From Actinomycetes bacterium (GTDB lineage Bacteria > Actinomycetota > Acidimicrobiia > Acidimicrobiales > Acidimicrobiaceae): DNA of 58,879 nt. The first letter of the stretch is position 1. Each line of letters begins with the position of its first letter. A program made the position numbers and the translations under genes. Where the stretch lies: positions 1 to 58,879 of the forward strand of contig JAJYGT010000030.1 of assembly GCA_021785005.1 (NCBI GenBank), read 5' to 3'. Below the pieces are notes generated by a model. It worked only from the letters and a program-made list of their open reading frames with translations, had not been told where the DNA came from and searched no databases. Shown in pieces: positions 4,287 through 12,745 of the stretch.

Positions 4287-5045
4287 TTGGCAACTGACTT
4301 AGGATATATTGCCGCCTTTGGCGGAGGCGTAATCTCATTTGCTTCGCCCTGTGTACTTCCGCTGGTGCCCGCATACCTTTCTGTAATTGCCGGGGTCGAC
4401 GTTCGGGGAACTACGCCGGGCAGCCAAACGACTCTTACTCGAATGCGCGTAGCCAAAATGACTTTGACCTTTATCGCTGGCTTTGGGTTGGTGTTTGTGA
4501 TCCTTGGCATGACCGCAACAGCTATTGGTCGATCTATTTTTTCCAACCACATTTTGATAAGTCGAATTACAGGCGTATCCGTTGTGATACTGGGCTTGTT
4601 TATCCTAGGATCATCGTTTTCAAAGTCCCTGTTATTTGCGCGAGAAATTCGATTTCATCCAAGCTTTTCCAAACTAGGAGCATTTGGTCCATCAGTGGCC
4701 GGAGTCGCATTCGGGTTTGGCTGGACCCCTTGCATCGGACCTATCCTTGGTTCGATATTGGTAGTCGCTGCTAACCAACACACCGTTGCACAAGGCGGGT
4801 TACTCCTCGGAGCCTATACTGCTGGTCTTGGTGTACCATTCATGATGACTGGGCTGGCATTTCAAAAAGTAAGTCAATCATTCAATTGGCTAAAACGCCA
4901 TAGTCGCACCCTAACGATAGCATCGGGAATTGCGTTGGTTAGCTTTGGAGTTCTCTTGACTTTTGACAAATTTTCAATTATCACGGTCGCTATGAATAAC
5001 TTCTTTACCAGTATTGGACTGGCAAAACTAATCTATCTAGGTTGA
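4287..5045 (+). CDS. ccdA: Cytochrome c biogenesis/thiol transport protein CcdA
   Basis: A 252-residue membrane protein of the CcdA/DsbD-beta family, which carries reducing equivalents across the cytoplasmic membrane to apocytochrome c or other extracytoplasmic thiols. The two pseudo-symmetric Cys-Pro motifs are visible: SPCVLP near residue 21 and TPCIGP near residue 150, each within a TM helix; about six TM segments can be counted. The start is TTG 4287, with AAGG about a dozen bases upstream. No CcsA/ResB or thioredoxin-like partner lies beside it, so its client is not shown by context. A 7-bp inverted repeat followed by five T (5132-5195, loop 45 nt) downstream is only a weak terminator candidate. 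Confidence 0.85.
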   Translation: MATDLGYIAAFGGGVISFASPCVLPLVPAYLSVIAGVDVRGTTPGSQTTLTRMRVAKMTLTFIAGFGLVFVILGMTATAIGRSIFSNHILISRITGVSVVILGLFILGSSFSKSLLFAREIRFHPSFSKLGAFGPSVAGVAFGFGWTPCIGPILGSILVVAANQHTVAQGGLLLGAYTAGLGVPFMMTGLAFQKVSQSFNWLKRHSRTLTIASGIALVSFGVLLTFDKFSIITVAMNNFFTSIGLAKLIYLG

Positions 5046-5210
5046 CTTACATTTATACATATATGAAGCGAAGTTATCCGGTATAGTCCAAAGATTTCGT
5101 GGCCATAAACCCTTTTCCATCGTTGCTAATTCGCACCTCCCATTTGAAAAGTCGACCATATATCTGCCTACCTGACAATCTCAAGGTGCGTTTTTACCAG
5201 CTAGAATGCA

Positions 5211-8200
5211 TCAAGTTCGAAGCGTAAATATTTCTTTGAGCTCTTTGTTGTTAAGATTTCCGATCCAAGTCTCCCCGGCTCCAACCGTAAAGTCAGCAAG
5301 TTCTTTCTTTGAGGAAATCATGTCGTTTATTTGCTCCTCAAAGGTTGCCTTGGTGATAAATCGATGCACCTGCACATTGCGCTTTTGTCCGATACGATAA
5401 GCTCGGTCCGTTGCCTGAGATTCCACCGCAGGGTTCCACCACAGATCGAAATGAATAACATTGTTCGCAGCTGTTAGATTGAGCCCTGTTCCGCCAGCTT
5501 TCAGCGATAAAATAAACGCTCGTTCGGTGGCGTCATTCTGGAATCGTTGAACGTACTCGTCGCGCTTTGCACGACCAATCCCGCCATGCAAATAGAGAGG
5601 TTCCCTGTCAAACCATTCACTGATCCATTTAGATAAGATTCGGCCCATTTCAGCAAATTGAGTGAAAACCAACACCTTTTCGTGGCTGGCATATATTGGT
5701 TCCAACAGGTCGTAAAGAAGTGCTGCCTTACCTGAGTGACTTGGGTCAAAGTCGTCGCTTTTGAGGAACTGAGCCGGGTGGTTACAGATCTGTTTCAGCG
5801 CCATAATCATCTGTAAGACTACTCCCTGGCGTCGAAAGGTATCTGAAGTTCCATCAAGAACTTCAATCCCCTCGCGTACCACCGATTCATACAATGCCGC
5901 CTGAATCTTGGTGAGTTCGCAGTATCCGTCACTTTCGACCTTGTCAGGCAGGTCAGCAATGATGGACTTGTCGGATTTTACTCTCCGGAGCAGAAAAGGT
6001 GCTGTAATACGCTTAAAGCGCTCTGCTACCGCCTGATCGTGGTGACTTTGGATCGGGACAGAAAATTCTTTGTTGAAGCTGGTGAGACCTCCCAAGTAGC
6101 CGCGGTTAGCAAAATCCATGATACACCAGTACTCCGAAAGGCGATTTTCCACCGGAGTACCGGTCATGGCCACAAATGACTTGGCCGGTATCGCTTTCAC
6201 CGCTTTGGTCTGGGCAGCGGTAGGATTCTTAATGTTTTGGGCTTCATCAATGACGAGCACTCTCCAACTGTGCTTTTTGAGCTTGGCAAGATCGGTTCTG
6301 GCTACCCCGTAGGTAGTAATCACCACGTCAGGCAGATCTGTGGCAATATTGCGAGCGCTACCATGAAATACCCCACAAGATATACCTGGCGCAAAACGGG
6401 AAAACTCGGTCACCCAGTTAGTGAGGAGTCCGGTAGGCACAATCACGAGCGCCTTGGCATGTGTTAGATCACCATCGTTCTTCAACTTTGCGATAGCCGC
6501 AATTACTTGTATTGTCTTACCAAGTCCCATGTCATCTGCTATAACACTGCCAAAGCCAAGGTCTAAGTTCCTACTCAACCAGGCGAAACCGCTTTTTTGA
6601 TATGGCCTTAGTTCAGCGTTTAGTCCTTTGGGAATTGCTACGGATCCAACCCTGGTCAACTCTACCACGAGTGCACGTGCCTTTTTATCGAGTGATACCG
6701 GAGTTCCAGCGAACTCCCCTGCTAGAGCCACTTGAATCAATTCATTCTTGCTAGGTGAACGGTTATTTTCTAGCTGGGTCTTCAGGCGCTCGATCGTCGT
6801 TGGATCTAAGTAGACATACTGACCACGGAACTTTACAACTCCTCGGGCATTACCAAGAGCTTCTTCGAATTCTTTTGAAGTTAGCAAAACGTCACCAACC
6901 GCCAACTTCCAGTCAAAGTCAAAAATCCCTTCCGTACTAAGCGATACCACTGAGGGGCCAGATACTCCTGATATCGACATTGAGATTCGGGGCGAAACAA
7001 GCGACTCAAGACCTTTTGGGATAATCGTGCGAATGCCGAGAATGCGCATTACGGGCAAAGTGTCAAACAGGAATCTGGCAAGGAACTCTGAATTGAATAC
7101 AATCGGGTCTTTGCCGCCCGTACTTAGATAATTATCAAGCAACGGCAAATAATCTGCGAGAAGTGAAACGTCTTGCAACACCGAGTATCGTCTCGATTTC
7201 CAAGTCTCGTCGGTCATTACTTTGGAGATCGCAACTGGCAACTCAGTCGAAGACCTCTGTGAAGTAACACCAATCGAAAGCGCGAAATTTTCACCGTGCT
7301 CCTCTAGCCACAGCGCCAACGAGTGCTCCCGCTCGCCAAGGCTAAGCCTAGAGAGCCAGACCTCGATTCCACTGGCAATCTCGCCCTCACCAGGCTGTGC
7401 AAAGCTTGCTCTTAGATTCCCAAAGAACAGTTCTGTCACCCCGTCGCGGGGCGCACGATTAGTGACAGCGTCGTTAGTGAAACTCACGACGAAGTAATCT
7501 AAAATCACGCTTAGCAACGTTGCGGCTTGGACGTCACCGTTTAAGCTACGCTCGGTTGTGCCATCATTTACGCTAACGAGTCCCTTGGGCAACATGACGC
7601 TTAGATCCAGTACCAAAGACCTTACCGCTGGATCCATGGATGCTCCAAGCCACCTAAGGCCAACAACTGGCATAGCTATTTCAAAGACCTGGGGAAACAC
7701 TGCACCTTTGGCCAAGAGGTGAAGGGCCGCCATGCGCAGATGGTAGAAAGCCGCTACTTCTGGCTGATAGTCCAATACCTGAGCATCATCCAGTGCGCCA
7801 AGCGCGGTCATGAACGCAGGCAATGATTTTATAGTTGCAAAGCCCGAAAGCTGCAAGGTGTAATCGCCTAGAATTGCGAGGTGTGGACGATCCAAGACCG
7901 TAATTACAGTAACTTTGTCCTTCGGTTGCACGCCACCAACACCCAAAGAATCAACGATCTTGCGGGCGCCACTTGAAATTCGTTTGAGCGACTTCTCGTA
8001 AATAGAACGAAAGTCCCCGTTCTGGTAAAATGGAGGGCGCTCGGACAGTAAGTCAACCAACGAAGTACTAAAGTCTTTTATTCGACTGTAGTCAAGTAAC
8101 CTATATTTATCTGGATCAGTTAAATCACGCTCTGTTTCAGTTCCACCATCTAACACGTGAGCTGCGTTATCAATTAGATGGTGTCCAAGAAAAGACTCGA

Positions 8201-8756
8201 TTTTTACCAGCCCCGCTTGAGCTTGATTTTCGATTGAGATGTCAAAAGCTTTGAGCGCAGCGGTAACGTCAACGCCTCTAATTGAAAAAACGAGAAACGG
8301 ATTGCCGTCAATCTCGCGACTAAAAAGATAGATTACCGCTGCTAAATGCTTGCAAGGCACTGCCCAATCCGGACATGAGCATTTCATCGATAAATCTTTC
8401 CACTGCGTTGGAAAGACCGAAATGCCAAGTTCGTTTGCGTATTCAAGAACCCTGTGATCAAGGTCACGGTTCAACATTTTTGAGATAACGACAGGATCTC
8501 CGGCTAAACGCGCCAAAAGCACTTCCATTTGCTTAGAAGCAATCGCAGGAACAGATATCACAACTGAATAAGGTCTAGGTCGAGAACCCCAAACCTTGGC
8601 CCGAATTACCCCGTCGCGAATCTCGAGTTCATCTACAGAACCATTGTTCGCATAGCTACGTCCCCGGGGAAGCCGATTTCCATAGTCGATACGCGCCAAG
8701 GCGTTAAGCCACTCTTGCCCCCACCAGGTCTGACCAAATCCATGTCTGTACGCCAC
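5211..8756 (-). CDS. SWIM zinc-finger SNF2/HepA-type helicase
   Basis: An 1181-residue DNA-dependent ATPase of the SNF2 family. A SWIM-type zinc motif (CSCPDWAVPCKH, residues about 122-135) is followed by a long middle region of unknown structure. The SNF2 motor comes next: Walker A (ADDMGLGKT) near 744, the DEAQ box near 837, and a helicase C-terminal half with the arginine-finger motif (QATDRAYRIGQ) near 1118. It starts at GTG 8756, with AGGT about six bases upstream. Such SWIM-SNF2 proteins are common in actinobacteria and are thought to remodel protein-DNA complexes, perhaps RNA polymerase as RapA does; the exact role is unproven. It is monocistronic here. Confidence 0.9.
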   Translation of the reverse strand: MAYRHGFGQTWWGQEWLNALARIDYGNRLPRGRSYANNGSVDELEIRDGVIRAKVWGSRPRPYSVVISVPAIASKQMEVLLARLAGDPVVISKMLNRDLDHRVLEYANELGISVFPTQWKDLSMKCSCPDWAVPCKHLAAVIYLFSREIDGNPFLVFSIRGVDVTAALKAFDISIENQAQAGLVKIESFLGHHLIDNAAHVLDGGTETERDLTDPDKYRLLDYSRIKDFSTSLVDLLSERPPFYQNGDFRSIYEKSLKRISSGARKIVDSLGVGGVQPKDKVTVITVLDRPHLAILGDYTLQLSGFATIKSLPAFMTALGALDDAQVLDYQPEVAAFYHLRMAALHLLAKGAVFPQVFEIAMPVVGLRWLGASMDPAVRSLVLDLSVMLPKGLVSVNDGTTERSLNGDVQAATLLSVILDYFVVSFTNDAVTNRAPRDGVTELFFGNLRASFAQPGEGEIASGIEVWLSRLSLGEREHSLALWLEEHGENFALSIGVTSQRSSTELPVAISKVMTDETWKSRRYSVLQDVSLLADYLPLLDNYLSTGGKDPIVFNSEFLARFLFDTLPVMRILGIRTIIPKGLESLVSPRISMSISGVSGPSVVSLSTEGIFDFDWKLAVGDVLLTSKEFEEALGNARGVVKFRGQYVYLDPTTIERLKTQLENNRSPSKNELIQVALAGEFAGTPVSLDKKARALVVELTRVGSVAIPKGLNAELRPYQKSGFAWLSRNLDLGFGSVIADDMGLGKTIQVIAAIAKLKNDGDLTHAKALVIVPTGLLTNWVTEFSRFAPGISCGVFHGSARNIATDLPDVVITTYGVARTDLAKLKKHSWRVLVIDEAQNIKNPTAAQTKAVKAIPAKSFVAMTGTPVENRLSEYWCIMDFANRGYLGGLTSFNKEFSVPIQSHHDQAVAERFKRITAPFLLRRVKSDKSIIADLPDKVESDGYCELTKIQAALYESVVREGIEVLDGTSDTFRRQGVVLQMIMALKQICNHPAQFLKSDDFDPSHSGKAALLYDLLEPIYASHEKVLVFTQFAEMGRILSKWISEWFDREPLYLHGGIGRAKRDEYVQRFQNDATERAFILSLKAGGTGLNLTAANNVIHFDLWWNPAVESQATDRAYRIGQKRNVQVHRFITKATFEEQINDMISSKKELADFTVGAGETWIGNLNNKELKEIFTLRT

Positions 8757-8879
8757 TGCGCTACCTATCTAGTGAACAATTATCAAAGAGACTGCGACAA
8801 ATGGCAAAGATATCATAAGGTTATCATATTACCCTGTGCCTAAGACCAATGGTAAAAATGATCAAACAACCAAGAACAG

Positions 8880-9182
8880 TTATGACACAGGGTGGGTCAA
8901 AAAATGTCGCTGATGTGGGTCAAAAAAACGTCGCTGTTTACAATAAGCGGCGCGCTTATTCCCATCGATTAGTGCATAATTTTTGCCCAAACGGCTACAT
9001 AAGATAGCCGCCTTCATGGCGAAATCCGGGTACATTTCCACTCCGCCGAAACTAGCGGCCGGGGCGTTCAGCGCGGAGTCGGCCAAGTTTAGTTGGGCAG
9101 TAACACACAATACCTCGGCTGGCACACCCAGCACCGCCTTTGCGATAATAAGATAGTCCGCCAGCCCAAGGTACAGGATCAT
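8880..9182 (-). pseudogene. doc: Doc/Fic-type toxin, C-terminally truncated
   Basis: Residues 1-80 match the Doc (death-on-curing) branch of the Fic family, which inactivates EF-Tu by phosphorylation; the loop DGNKR is kept. Two defects suggest that it is inactive. The catalytic His that normally stands five residues before DGNKR (H-x-F-x-D) is a Tyr here. The last 20 or so residues are not Doc sequence but translate a transposon end that runs up to the stop codon at 8880-8882. Full-length Doc is about 125 residues, so the C-terminal helices are lost. The intact antitoxin gene precedes it by 8 bases. The gene is more GC-rich than the flanking chromosome, consistent with transfer. Confidence 0.75.
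8883..8940 (+). repeat. Orphan IS21-type terminal repeat array
   Basis: This array begins with TGACAC (8883-8888), followed by two 23-bp direct repeats at 8894-8916 and 8917-8939. Each has a GGGTCAAAAAA core and then GTCGCTG. Tandem subterminal repeats of this period are typical of IS21-family ends. The inward side joins the truncated doc gene directly, so the rest of the element is gone. No matching right end in inverted orientation was found in the window. Confidence 0.6.
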
Positions 9183-9190
9183 GGCGTCGC

Positions 9191-9406
9191 CTACTCGGCT
9201 AGTCGTTGCAGAATCTGCTGGTCAGCCTTCATCCGCTCCCGCAGTCGCGCCTGAAACTCAGGGTCCAAGCGACGGTTCTTGAGGTGCTCGGCAATCGCGT
9301 CGCGAATCACCTCAGAGATCGCAACGCCGTCCACTCGAGCTACGAACTCCACCTCGTCCGCCTGGTCTATCGGTTGTCTAATCGTCGTGATGCGGGTCTC
9401 ACTCAT
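9191..9406 (-). CDS. Ribbon-helix-helix-type antitoxin of a Doc module
   Basis: A 71-residue protein with an N-terminal strand rich in Thr/Ile/Arg (about residues 4-10) and two helices (about 16-43) that fit a ribbon-helix-helix DNA-binding fold. A charged C-terminal tail rich in Arg, Glu and Gln would bind the toxin. It lies directly upstream of the doc remnant in the usual antitoxin-first order. A purine-rich GAGGGGAG precedes the ATG at 9406, and a good promoter lies 30-55 bases upstream. Such antitoxins bind their own promoter and repress it. The antitoxin looks intact although its toxin is broken. Confidence 0.72.
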   Translation of the reverse strand: MSETRITTIRQPIDQADEVEFVARVDGVAISEVIRDAIAEHLKNRRLDPEFQARLRERMKADQQILQRLAE

Positions 9407-9429
9407 CTCGGCTCCCCTCTTCCTTAACT

Positions 9430-9458
9430 ATCATACCAGTGTGATTGCGTGCTTGCAA
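9430..9458 (-). promoter_or_regulatory. Promoter of the antitoxin-doc operon
   Basis: On the minus strand, TTGCAA (9453-9458) and TATGAT (9430-9435) are separated by 17 bases, a near-consensus sigma70-type promoter 24 bases upstream of the antitoxin ATG. It is the best-formed promoter of the accessory island. Confidence 0.55.
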
Positions 9459-9499
9459 CTAATTGTATATTTGTATGCTATATGGCATGAATGACACAA

Positions 9500-10001
9500 T
9501 GACACTACTAACTTAAATATCCCCACTCCTGCTAACTAAAAATCCCCACTTAGTTGTAAAACGCAATTAGATGTAATTTCACACTTGGCGGGATTCCTGA
9601 TCTGAGATAGTTGAAAGTAATCAACTTTTCGAAGGAGGGAATCATTGATTTCAAAGGAGCAAGACGTGGAGATCCATGCATTACAGGCACAGGGTTGGTC
9701 TATATCGGCTATTTCACGACATGGTGGTTTAGACCGTAAGACTGTGAGGGCATATTTATCTGGTGAGAGAGAGCCAGGCAAACACAATGCTTCGGGACTT
9801 CGCTCGTCAAATTTAGATGCGTTTGTGCTGTATCTGAACGAGCGTTTTAGATCCGATCCCCAAATTTGGTCAACGGTACTTTATGACGAAATAACTAACG
9901 CTGATTATCGCCATAGTTACTCAAGTTTCACCAGAGAATTACGTAAACAGAACTGGGGAATTAAGTTGAGCGGCTCTGGGGAATTTTTGTAAGCGGTGTC
10001 G
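9500..10001 (+). mobile_element. 502-bp internally deleted IS21-family element
   Basis: The element is bounded by imperfect inverted ends (TGACAC at 9500; CGACAC read inward from 10001) and flanked by a 4-bp direct repeat ACAA at 9496-9499 and 10002-10005, as expected for IS21-family target duplication. Each end carries two CCCCA(C/G) boxes exactly 23 bases apart: 9521 and 9544 on the left, 9976 and 9953 (complement) on the right. The boxes stand 20-21 bases from the tips. Only the first part of istA remains; the catalytic DDE region and istB are missing. Mobility would need proteins from a full-length relative. Confidence 0.72.
9645..9992 (+). pseudogene. istA: IstA N-terminal DNA-binding fragment (IS21 transposase)
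   Basis: A 115-residue ORF starting at TTG 9645 with a very strong ribosome-binding site (AAGGAGGG, 9632-9639). Residues about 1-45 form the helix-turn-helix of IS21 transposases (pattern ISKEQ, then SISAISRHGGLDRKTVRAYL), and a second helical region follows. Full-length IstA has about 400-500 residues with a DDE catalytic core, which is absent. The frame runs into the right terminal repeat and ends there, so its last dozen residues are translated transposon end. If expressed, it could still bind the element ends and act as a repressor or competitor; that is inference. Confidence 0.72.
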
Positions 10002-10032
10002 ACAAAAGGTCAAGCCATGACCGCGATAGTTC

Positions 10033-10230
10033 ATGACCCACCAGGCCGGCGAGGTACCCATCCTCATTGACGGAAGCCGCTATATCGCGCCACACCGTAT
10101 TTTGATCGGGGCACAGCTGCGAATATTGCCAACTCCGCCGATTGGCGAGGATCGCGACTTGTGGAAGGGCTTGGCAGCCGCACTCTCCTTGCCCGAGACG
10201 TTACATGGGCACCAACGCAAGCGTGACTGA
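10033..10230 (+). pseudogene. Multiubiquitin-type (ubiquitin-like) protein fragment
   Basis: A 65-residue ORF whose residues about 7-45 resemble a ubiquitin-like beta-grasp repeat of bacterial multiubiquitin proteins. The pattern is ILIDGSRY, then a turn, GAQLR, then PPIGEDRDLW. In known systems this protein is coded beside a ThiF/E1-like activating enzyme, as here. The expected second half (a VPGG-type strand and the C-terminal tail) is missing: the sequence becomes unrelated after DRDLW, and the ORF stops inside a transposon-like end that starts near 10224. No good ribosome-binding site was seen. I rate it a truncated remnant; the family call rests on pattern memory, not on a search. Confidence 0.5.
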
Positions 10231-10298
10231 ATATTCCACTAATTCCTTTCCACCTATTCCAGTAATTCGTTTCCACCCATTCTGGAAACTCTTTACCA
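10224..10298 (+). repeat. Second orphan IS21-type end with 23-bp repeats
   Basis: TGACTG at 10224 is followed by two 23-bp direct repeats at 10232-10254 and 10255-10277 that differ at only two positions (TATTCCA-TAATTC-TTTCCACC pattern). A degenerate third copy extends to about 10298. The period equals that of the arrays at 8894 and 9521, but the sequence differs, pointing to a different IS21-family member. No transposase gene is attached to it. Confidence 0.55.
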
Positions 10299-10326
10299 GT
10301 CTTTTGGAGTAGGTAAATGCGTCAAA

Positions 10327-10363
10327 CTTGTAACTGGATCAGATTGTCTGATCCAGTTACAAG
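10327..10363. repeat. Perfect 17-bp inverted repeat with 3-nt loop
   Basis: The left arm 10327-10343 and right arm 10347-10363 are exact reverse complements around TTG. The right arm ends in AAG, which is the start of an AAGGAG ribosome-binding site (10361-10366) for the TTG at 10373. In RNA the hairpin would partly cover that site; in DNA it could be an operator. There is no T-run, so it is not a normal terminator. Confidence 0.7.
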
Positions 10364-10372
10364 GAGCAAGCA

Positions 10373-11140
10373 TTGAAAAGAAAAGGGGGGATGGTCATTG
10401 GAACCGTTGGTCGTGTCTGCAGCAGCAGCGACGACCGCGTGTCGGTAGACAAGTTCCGGATCGTGGGTGATCGCATCCGCCTGATAGTGAAACGCGACGA
10501 CGTGGGTCGGCCCAAGTCCGCGGTTCTCCACAGTATTTACGCCAAATTGGATTCAGCAATCAGATCAACGATGTCATGGTGGCCCTTCAGGATCCCCGCG
10601 CTCGCGAAGCGATCAAGCATACTAAAGTAGTCGCGGTGTTGCGTCGACGGGCATGGCGCTCGCCTCGTCCTCGACCGTTTGGCTTATGCTCATCTTGTCC
10701 AAGTTCTTGATGTTGAAGTACTGATCAGCGCCGAAGACGGCGCCGTTCGTGGAATTGATGGGCGTGTCACCTGGGTCAGTCCCAACGCGGCTTGTCTGCT
10801 CTGCCGCGGGCGATCCCACGCGGCCCTCGCTTACGCGGAGATGCTCGACCCGGATGAACGCAAGAGGCTCGCCGGCGAAGGGTACGTGCAAGAGGCTGAG
10901 AATTCACAGCCTGCGGTGGTGACACTGACAGGCTTTGTGGCGTCACTTGCCACCACCGAGCTAATGCAGCGGCTGTTCGGCTTGGCGGATGATGCGCCGA
11001 CCGAGCTACTCATGCGTATTTAAGACCGCGAACTAAGCTGCAATCAAGTACCGCAGAGACCTGGCTGCTTCTGTTCCGACAACTCTTTTTCGGGGCGCGG
11101 CCGAGAACCACCGTGCTTGGATCTCTTGTGGCCTGCGTAA
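10373..11140 (+). pseudogene. ThiF/E1-like ubiquitin-activating enzyme, frameshifted
   Basis: E1-like enzymes adenylate the C-terminus of a ubiquitin-like protein. Pieces of one gene lie in order in different frames: DDVGRPKSAVL near 10467-10530; an IN-DVMVAL to AIKHTKVVAV piece near 10564-10643; and, after a frameshift near 10640, CVDGHGARLVLDRLAYAHL onward to 11023. This third piece has a CLLC zinc pair and an LDPDERKRLAGEGYV motif. It is cut by an in-frame TAA (11021-11023), after which the same frame continues with ELLMRI-stop-DREL and CFC to a TAA at 11138. The ORF start TTG 10373 has AAGGAG six bases upstream. The glycine-rich ATP loop is degenerate. The composition is clearly more GC-rich than the chromosome. 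It is almost certainly a decayed partner of the multiubiquitin fragment. Confidence 0.72.
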
Positions 11141-11530
11141 TTACAAGACTTGTTGAATTCTGGCGCCGCTTGGGGCTCTGCGACGCTGTCATTTTTTGCT
11201 CAAACACGGGCGCGTACAGTGGTGCGACGACACCGAGCGGGGTGGGTGATACCATGCGGAGATGCAATGCTACGTAGCACCAAATGCTCCTTATGTATGA
11301 TTAGCTTACACGGGTTATAACCTTGAGTCAAAATTGGCTCCAAACATGCTACCGGCGTCTTTTTCTCGCATTACAGCCGATTTGAGGCACAAAAAACGCA
11401 TCGATATTCTCAAATTTCCGAAATACGAATTCAACCTGTTGTACGATTAACTCTTATGGCAAAAGGTCTTATAATTCCGAGTGATCTGAGTCGTTCGGGT
11501 AGCTCATTAAATTGAAAAAGGGGGAGCCAA
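11141..11530. other. End of accessory island and leader of sqr
   Basis: Up to about 11280 the DNA stays GC-rich and one frame (11139-11275) reads through a plausible but unassigned peptide (LVEFWRRLGL motif), perhaps a remnant of the next gene of the ubiquitin-like operon. From about 11290 the composition returns to the AT-rich chromosomal style, and the sqr promoter lies at 11447-11475. No intact gene is present. Confidence 0.4.
11447..11475 (+). promoter_or_regulatory. Predicted promoter of sqr
   Basis: TTAACT (11447-11452) and a perfect TATAAT (11470-11475) are separated by 17 bases, 55 bases upstream of the sqr start. This is among the closest matches to a sigma70 promoter in the window. 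Confidence 0.5.
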
Positions 11531-12745
11531 TTGGGCCCACAGGTTAATTCTCATCACAATGTACTCATAGTTGGTGGCGGAACCGCTGGAATAACGGTCG
11601 CTTCACAACTAAAGCGCAAAGGTATTACAGATATTGCAATTATCGAACCTGCGGACAAACACTACTACCAACCGTTATGGACATTAGTTGGTGGTGGACT
11701 AGTAAATGTTGAAAGTACCGAAAGACCGATGATGTCTGTTATCCCAAAGGGCGTAACTTGGATTAAAGATGCAGCCACTGGGATAGAGCCTGATGGAAAC
11801 ATGATCGAGCTTAGTTCAGGTCGATTCATTGGATACAACTACGTAGTAGTCGCACCGGGAATCCAGCTAAATTGGGACAAGGTAAATGGGCTCAGCGAAA
11901 CACTGGGCAAAAATGGCGTGTCGTCAAACTATACCTATGATTTAGCTCCCAAGACCTGGGAGAATATCAAGAAATTAACCACTGGAACTGCAATTTTTAA
12001 CATGCCCGTCGGCGCCATCAAATGCGCAGGTGCGCCACAGAAGATTGCTTATTTAGCTTGCGACTACTGGAAGCGCAACAATGTCTTGGATGCAATAAAA
12101 GTCATTTTGGTCCTGCCAGGACCAGCAATTTTTGGTGTGCCACAATTTGCAAAGCCACTTATGGATGTGGTACGGCGTTATGGCATTGAAGTCATGTATC
12201 AATCTGAGGTAGTCTCGGTGAACGGTGACACTAAAGAAATAACCGTCAGAGACCTCGCCAACAAAGACGCCGAGAACAAGGTAATTCATTTTGACATGGC
12301 ACATATCGTGCCACCTCAATCTGCGCCAGATTGGATTAAAGATTCCAAGTTGGCCGATCAATCTAACCCTGCGGGATACGTCGAAATTGACAAGCACACC
12401 ATGAAACATACTCGGTATGAAAACGTATTCTCACTTGGCGATGCAGGGTCATCTCCGAACTCTAAGACTGGCGCTGCTATCCGCAAACAAGCTCCCGTTG
12501 TAGTCTCGAACTTGCTTAGCGCAATGGGCAAAACCGCAACGCAAAAGTCCTACGATGGCTACGCATCGTGCCCCTTGGTAACCTCGCATAATCGGTGCAT
12601 TATGGCCGAATTTGACTATGAACCCAAGCCAACGCCTACGTTTCCAATACTAAATATGCAAAAAGAGCGCTATGACATGTTTTTGGTCAAGCGATACGCA
12701 CTGCCAATCATGTACTGGAACTTCATGCTAAAAGGTCGTGCCTAA
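11531..12745 (+). CDS. sqr: Sulfide:quinone oxidoreductase, type II-like
   Basis: A 404-residue FAD-dependent peripheral membrane enzyme that oxidises sulfide to sulfane sulfur and passes electrons to the quinone pool. The N-terminal FAD-binding GGGTAG motif is at about residues 11-16. The two redox-active cysteines of the SQOR-like (type II) group are in IKCAGAPQK (Cys about 165) and SCPLVT (Cys about 347); a second dinucleotide-type segment ending FSLGDAGS is near residue 308. The start is TTG 11531, with a GGGGAG ribosome-binding site six bases upstream. It is monocistronic, with its own promoter. No persulfide dioxygenase or rhodanese gene lies beside it, so the fate of the sulfane sulfur is not shown here. 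Confidence 0.9.
   Translation: MGPQVNSHHNVLIVGGGTAGITVASQLKRKGITDIAIIEPADKHYYQPLWTLVGGGLVNVESTERPMMSVIPKGVTWIKDAATGIEPDGNMIELSSGRFIGYNYVVVAPGIQLNWDKVNGLSETLGKNGVSSNYTYDLAPKTWENIKKLTTGTAIFNMPVGAIKCAGAPQKIAYLACDYWKRNNVLDAIKVILVLPGPAIFGVPQFAKPLMDVVRRYGIEVMYQSEVVSVNGDTKEITVRDLANKDAENKVIHFDMAHIVPPQSAPDWIKDSKLADQSNPAGYVEIDKHTMKHTRYENVFSLGDAGSSPNSKTGAAIRKQAPVVVSNLLSAMGKTATQKSYDGYASCPLVTSHNRCIMAEFDYEPKPTPTFPILNMQKERYDMFLVKRYALPIMYWNFMLKGRA

Follow-up and report, generated by a model that had tools for sequence, protein, structure and literature searches.

The 58,879-nucleotide stretch of DNA analysed here (the window; contig JAJYGT010000030.1 of an Actinomycetes bacterium from the Acidimicrobiaceae) contains, shortly after position 10,000, broken reading frames in which a preliminary description had recognized a multiubiquitin (Multi_ubiq) repeat and a ThiF/E1-like gene, and the locus raises the question of what these fragments once formed, how they reached their present site and whether anything among them could still work. 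Our analysis indicates that they are very probably what is left of a decayed, once mobile polyubiquitin-like operon and its RHH-Doc companion. Remnants of a type 6e polyUbl operon (Multi_ubiq / Prok-E2_E / JAB-ThiF(E1) / DUF6527; Iyer, Burroughs and Aravind, 2006, PMC1779556) are collinear across 10048-11240. What survives is the N-terminal half of Multi_ubiq, the tail of JAB, E1 without its first third and the terminal piece of DUF6527 (Table 1); deletions have removed E2, the core of JAB and the nucleotide-binding loop of E1. The fossil is wider than first noted: it does not end at 11140, as had been proposed, but continues to the DUF6527 end, and a truncated Doc gene with an RHH open reading frame (8925-9406) as well as transposon debris also belong to it. 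No part of the conjugation pathway in the window is workable, and the RHH gene alone could still yield a product.

Table 1. Features of the fossil operon and its surroundings, in window coordinates.
Feature	Position	Strand	Evidence or remarks
Insertion relative to congeners	5046-11530		Left neighbour a ccdA-like gene, ending at 5045; right neighbour an SQR-like FAD oxidoreductase gene, starting at 11531
Doc/Fic toxin remnant, first 86 of about 136 residues	8925-9182	-	PF02661, E 4.9e-6; homology
Intact 71-aa RHH antitoxin / candidate repressor ORF	9191-9406	-	63-73% identity to RHH adjoining intact operons
Worn Multi_ubiq promoter/operator, TTGCAA-N15-TATGCT with TTGTATAT-TTGTATGC repeats	9453-9479	+	Conserved with L066, L067 and L070, partly with L069
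Debris of a transposon, with the N-terminal HTH portion of a transposase judged IS21-like by eye	9530-10000		93-95% repeats elsewhere in own genome
Multi_ubiq beta-grasp domain, N-terminal half	10048-10164	+	53-65% identity to L066, L067, L069 and L070
Probable JAB N-terminal scrap (LLARDVTWAPTQA)	10185-10223	+	8/13 identical to G086 JAB-E1, in expected order; weak alone
Repeat debris including a 98-nt hairpin element	10226-10409		Copies in C171, C77 and C51 of own genome
JAB-E1 linker remnant, directly before E1 domain	10424-10498	+	43% over 23 residues to G086 JAB-E1; collinear
E1/ThiF remnant, nucleotide-binding N-terminus missing	10499-11134	+	tblastn, frameshift-aware alignment, tree
DUF6527 C-terminal end, metal-binding partner	11172-11240	+	39-69% identity over 14-23 residues to intact DUF6527; expected place

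Both family assignments of the preliminary description proved right by homology to intact operons. When the JAB-E1 protein from Mycobacterium (L067) was compared with the whole window by tblastn, an E-value of 1e-58 was obtained, and the frameshift-aware alignment that had been proposed as a check, carried out with the Mycobacterium JAB-E1 against 10160-11300, reached a score of 602, compared with a maximum of 91 in 40 first-order Markov resamplings and with 68 for the reverse complement (with cheap long gaps this alignment chains into debris before 10424, and 10424-11134 alone was used). The five E1 motifs quoted earlier are all present in three-frame translation and align in order with those of intact E1s, the Cys motifs CLLC and CFC being retained, and the reading of a gene split over several frames and by an in-frame stop was borne out by frameshifts near 10529 and 10636, which compensate each other, and a TAA at 11021. 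The E1 frame is still coding-like, with a GC content of 0.75, 0.45 and 0.64 at the three codon positions. For Multi_ubiq, E-values between 1e-10 and 5e-12 were obtained against L066, L067, L069 and L070; the piece first placed at 10033-10230 is real, but homology covers only the interval in Table 1, and the remainder of that reading frame is not Multi_ubiq. The suggested family search with Pfam yielded a weak ThiF match on the bare fragments and did not detect PF14452 at the Multi_ubiq piece, although intact homologues do score PF14452, and pairwise comparison with intact operons was needed. The weak ThiF match, together with top NCBIfam matches of an intact relative to ThiF/MoeB at scores far under cut-off, might be taken to mean that the E1-like remnant began as a MoeB/ThiF gene of ordinary cofactor metabolism or in an operon of the Bil/CBASS type. 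Such an origin is scarcely credible, given that the closest E1s are all JAB fusions within Multi_ubiq/E2_E/DUF6527 operons and that the E1 scrap lies between pieces of Multi_ubiq and DUF6527, a gene order that contradicts it.

Intact operons with E2 and JAB genes, for which a search in related genomes had been recommended, were indeed found. The closest intact E1s (57-62% identity over the best segment) came from Mycobacterium, Nocardioides and Pseudonocardiales records and from one Planctomycetota MAG, and the E1 of G086, which has a Multi_ubiq gene on the same contig, is 53% identical to the cleanest E1 piece. The intact loci carry PF14452, PF14462, a protein that joins PF14464 with PF00899, and DUF6527 (PF20137), and their proteins match the window in order. 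In a maximum-likelihood tree built on about 165 residues the fossil E1 grouped with the Actinomycetota rows L067, L068, L069 and L070 (97/92), L066 being next (100/97), and no E1 relatives were found in phage records and viral contigs. In two otherwise complete operons the E1 gene is split over several frames (L070, 4736-6510; L109, plasmid NZ_CP027930.2, about 6191-7561), showing that decay (or sequencing error) recurs in this E1/operon family.

The lesions in the window removed whole domains. At about 10168 the second half of Multi_ubiq, the entire E2 and the start of JAB were lost, and no match to E2 (Prok-E2_E, PF14462) was found anywhere in the window; since the close intact relatives have an E2, the window holds a remnant and not a functional 6e member. 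Repeats also present elsewhere in the host genome occupy the place of the JAB core, and of the JAB-E1 fusion the E1 remnant is clear while JAB is represented by the linker piece and the probable scrap. Most of DUF6527 is lost as well, and the short scraps (JAB N-terminus and DUF6527 end) cannot stand alone, their identification resting on position. From E1, about 75-80 codons comprising the nucleotide-binding loop with its GxGGxG motif are missing at 10498/10499. The 98-nt element at 10312-10409 has a 17-bp hairpin stem (fold z = -6.95) and gave no match to Rfam; a copy with 78% identity lies at C51:18118-18214 of the same genome.

An intact gene spoiled by sequencing errors is excluded, since base errors cannot account for absent domains. 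The preliminary description had also allowed for assembly errors hiding an intact system, and the host assembly is indeed a draft in 176 contigs, in which frameshifts are common errors. However, no part of the window contains E2, the JAB core or the E1 loop, repeats having taken their place, and the genome holds no intact copy elsewhere: PF14452 is otherwise absent from it, and the E1 fragment matches itself alone. It is very improbable that the living strain has a complete operon.

The fossil lies in DNA that was gained by this lineage. In three genomes of the same genus (G004, G010 and G011) the ccdA-like and SQR-like genes are adjacent, about 100 bp apart, while 6485 bp separate them in the window, which identifies 5.05-11.53 kb as an insertion. 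The earlier claim of past acquisition and loss is backed, as regards acquisition, by this empty site, and the locus documents that a bacterial ubiquitin-like operon was gained and has decayed at a defined chromosomal position. Besides the remnants of RHH-Doc and of the operon, the insertion holds transposon debris and a SNF2/DUF3670 helicase gene. The helicase gene (5211-8756, minus strand) shows a weak SWIM zinc-finger match and is 73% identical in congener G007; its PADLOC matches (ZorD, DpdE) probably merely reflect shared SNF2 domains. As first noted, the fossil is richer in GC than its surroundings (0.58-0.59 compared with 0.461 for the window), but this alone does not point to a distant donor, because the examined contigs of congeners reach 0.64-0.67. 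Other, distantly related Multi_ubiq or JAB-E1 genes occur in congeners G007:C472 (L035) and G011:C163 (L036), with E1 identities of about 30-40%, and the genus has therefore probably acquired such systems more than once.

The RHH gene adjoins the Doc remnant, which is 58-63% identical to the Doc proteins of L066, L067 and L070 and 37% identical to that of L069; no Doc relatives with at least 60% identity were found on plasmids. The C-terminus of Doc is replaced by repeat debris (about 8890-8944), and the gene does not encode a complete Fic/Doc toxin with a HxFx(D/N)GNKR-type motif. A Tyr occupies the catalytic His position of HPxxDGNKR (His in most relatives), which alone is not proof of death because the L069 Doc has Arg there. 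The transposon debris, whose open reading frame matches only HTH families, separates the RHH-side promoter from Multi_ubiq. A CRISPR-DR12 match inside the RHH gene (Rfam, 28 bits) was below the cut-off of 37 and was taken as chance.

Many RHH-Doc pairs in the phylum stand alone, with no Multi_ubiq beside them, a Fic/Doc match lying within 2 kb at 17 of the 19 RHH loci examined, and the pair might for that reason be an unrelated toxin-antitoxin module that lies beside the fossil by chance. Against this, the RHH gene followed by Doc stands divergently and directly upstream of the operon in L066, L067, L069 and L070, the nearest four relatives in which the pair is retained, and the promoter motif is shared, so that a chance neighbourhood appears improbable. 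Among the five intact loci in the clade of the fossil, L068 (Nocardioides lijunqiniae) lacks RHH-Doc and the other four carry it; since pairs without Multi_ubiq are so common, RHH-Doc is probably a toxin-antitoxin module that was recruited to this operon lineage. The sister clade carries RHH with FicT (four alphaproteobacterial plasmids; L097, L098, L105 and L107) or RHH alone (L032, L136, L137 and L109). An HTH-XRE and ImmA/IrrE pair was not found beside operons of the RHH-Doc clade; it is present in others (e.g. L033, L096 and L104), and in the E1 tree such loci fall outside both the RHH-Doc clade and its sister clade. The Fic/RHH neighbourhood is already visible in databases, because RefSeq annotates both genes at these operons on Methylocystis and Phenylobacterium plasmids. 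The Multi_ubiq gene of L137 (5097-5666; G319:C12) has two nearly identical tandem domains, which suggests that an internal duplication took place very recently. A gene of about 300 codons lies near sister-clade operons (L025, 2314-3258, in G086; L137, 6017-7003; L097, 6598-7491), and in G086 and G319 it could, judged by eye, encode a ClpP/SDH_sah-type serine protease as an extra partner.

The region between RHH and Multi_ubiq offers a candidate for the control of the operon. In the Doc clade these intergenic regions contain a TTGCAA-like box, a spacer of N16 and TATGCT with an extended TG, as well as TGTATGC repeats in an 8-bp step; the sister clade has TGGTATC repeats, also in an 8-bp step. 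The best 8-bp tandem match summed over 13 RHH loci was 88, compared with 64.3 in 200 simulations (sd 3.4, maximum 74), in a test that scores a region by its best match wherever that lies, which in the window and a few loci differs from the promoter pair, and that draws its regions from related loci; periods of 6, 7, 9, 10 and 11 showed no excess in the same regions. In the window the strongest repeat picked was AATGACAC, present twice, and not the promoter pair. Since tandem repeats overlapping the -10 box suit the needs of an RHH repressor, the 8-bp repeats at the Multi_ubiq promoter are likely the RHH operator. More tentatively, and with some doubt on our part, RHH-Fic/Doc may be the control arm, perhaps also an effector arm, of an entire lineage of bacterial ubiquitin-like systems, in the position taken elsewhere by HTH-ImmA/IrrE, with RHH repressing the Multi_ubiq promoter through TGTATGCn in the Doc clade and TGGTATCn in the FicT/RHH-only clade. 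If so, loss of the antitoxin would free toxin and conjugation together.

The homology, the order of the genes, their lesions, the insertion site, the place in the E1 tree and the conserved promoter repeats were all observed, and together they make the following history very probable. A mobile 6e operon (Multi_ubiq, E2, JAB-E1 fusion, DUF6527) with its divergent RHH-Doc pair entered an ancestor of this bacterium at the site bounded by ccdA and the SQR gene. Transposons that jumped into it, deletions, shifts of frame and a stop codon afterwards ruined it. In the intact relatives, as far as knowledge of the families can guide, the Multi_ubiq precursor would be trimmed by JAB, and the modifier would be adenylated by E1, handed to targets by E2 and removable by JAB. 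RHH bound to the 8-bp tandem repeats over the -10 box may repress the operon and its own Doc gene, and expression would presumably rise once RHH is lost. The survival of the RHH reading frame and the promoter region beside a truncated toxin could also mean that the island is not dead cargo and that selection keeps RHH, for instance as an antitoxin against other RHH-Doc pairs or in a regulatory role. We regard this as unlikely, though it survives better than the other alternatives; the intact frame is no evidence of function, because at the point-lesion rate of E1 chance survival of 71 codons is likely (about 40% by our estimate). The decayed operon with its companion is itself a modest find, and the RHH-Doc association of the intact relatives and the predicted operator are the part worth testing.

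The preliminary description had presented such operons as of interest both as ancestors of eukaryotic ubiquitin and as antiphage systems; to see in the present locus either such an ancestor or a proven antiphage system outruns the evidence for this 6e type. No reports of RHH-Fic/Doc at these operons were found in the literature searched, key subscription papers being outside its scope, and searches on DUF6527 with ubiquitin and on multiubiquitin with Fic returned nothing relevant. The published work consulted ties these operons to HTH-ImmA/IrrE pairs, not to RHH-Fic/Doc. A 2016 study on Synechocystis found that 70% of Multi_ubiq genes adjoin toxin-antitoxin loci, the toxins all being COG2856/DUF955 (ImmA/IrrE) (PMC4963859). 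The multiubiquitin cassette of pSYSX in Synechocystis 6803 is an equivalent operon from which a regulator/toxin pair diverges at the matching place, but this pair, Slr6056-Slr6057, consists of HTH-XRE and ImmA/IrrE (COG2856), whereas RHH and Doc are found here (PMC4963859). Compared with the 6e polyUbl type, as covered in the sections of PMC1779556 drawn on here, the parts are the same (tandem or single Multi_ubiq, E2-like UBC, JAB-E1 fusion and metal-binding DUF6527) and their order in the intact relatives is identical; however, the copy in the window is a broken one without E2, and its clade carries RHH-Doc, which those sections do not mention. Stand-alone RHH-Doc (death on curing) pairs likewise have these two families side by side, but here the pair is divergent to a ubiquitin-like operon and its toxin is truncated. 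A further parallel comes from Bub operons, where a 2026 paper found CapW or CapH with CapP beside 219 of 544 operons and CapK with CapS beside 59 (PMC13373217). In the CapH-CapP and CapK-CapS systems (Bub, CBASS), as in the RHH-Doc clade, a regulator pair sits at the promoter of a ubiquitin-like operon; the protein families differ, and control by DNA damage was demonstrated there, whereas control by RHH-Doc is predicted here from sequence (PMC13373217). The best-preserved part of the fossil, the RHH gene with its promoter, points to an operon lineage that may be controlled unlike the described DNA-damage switches.
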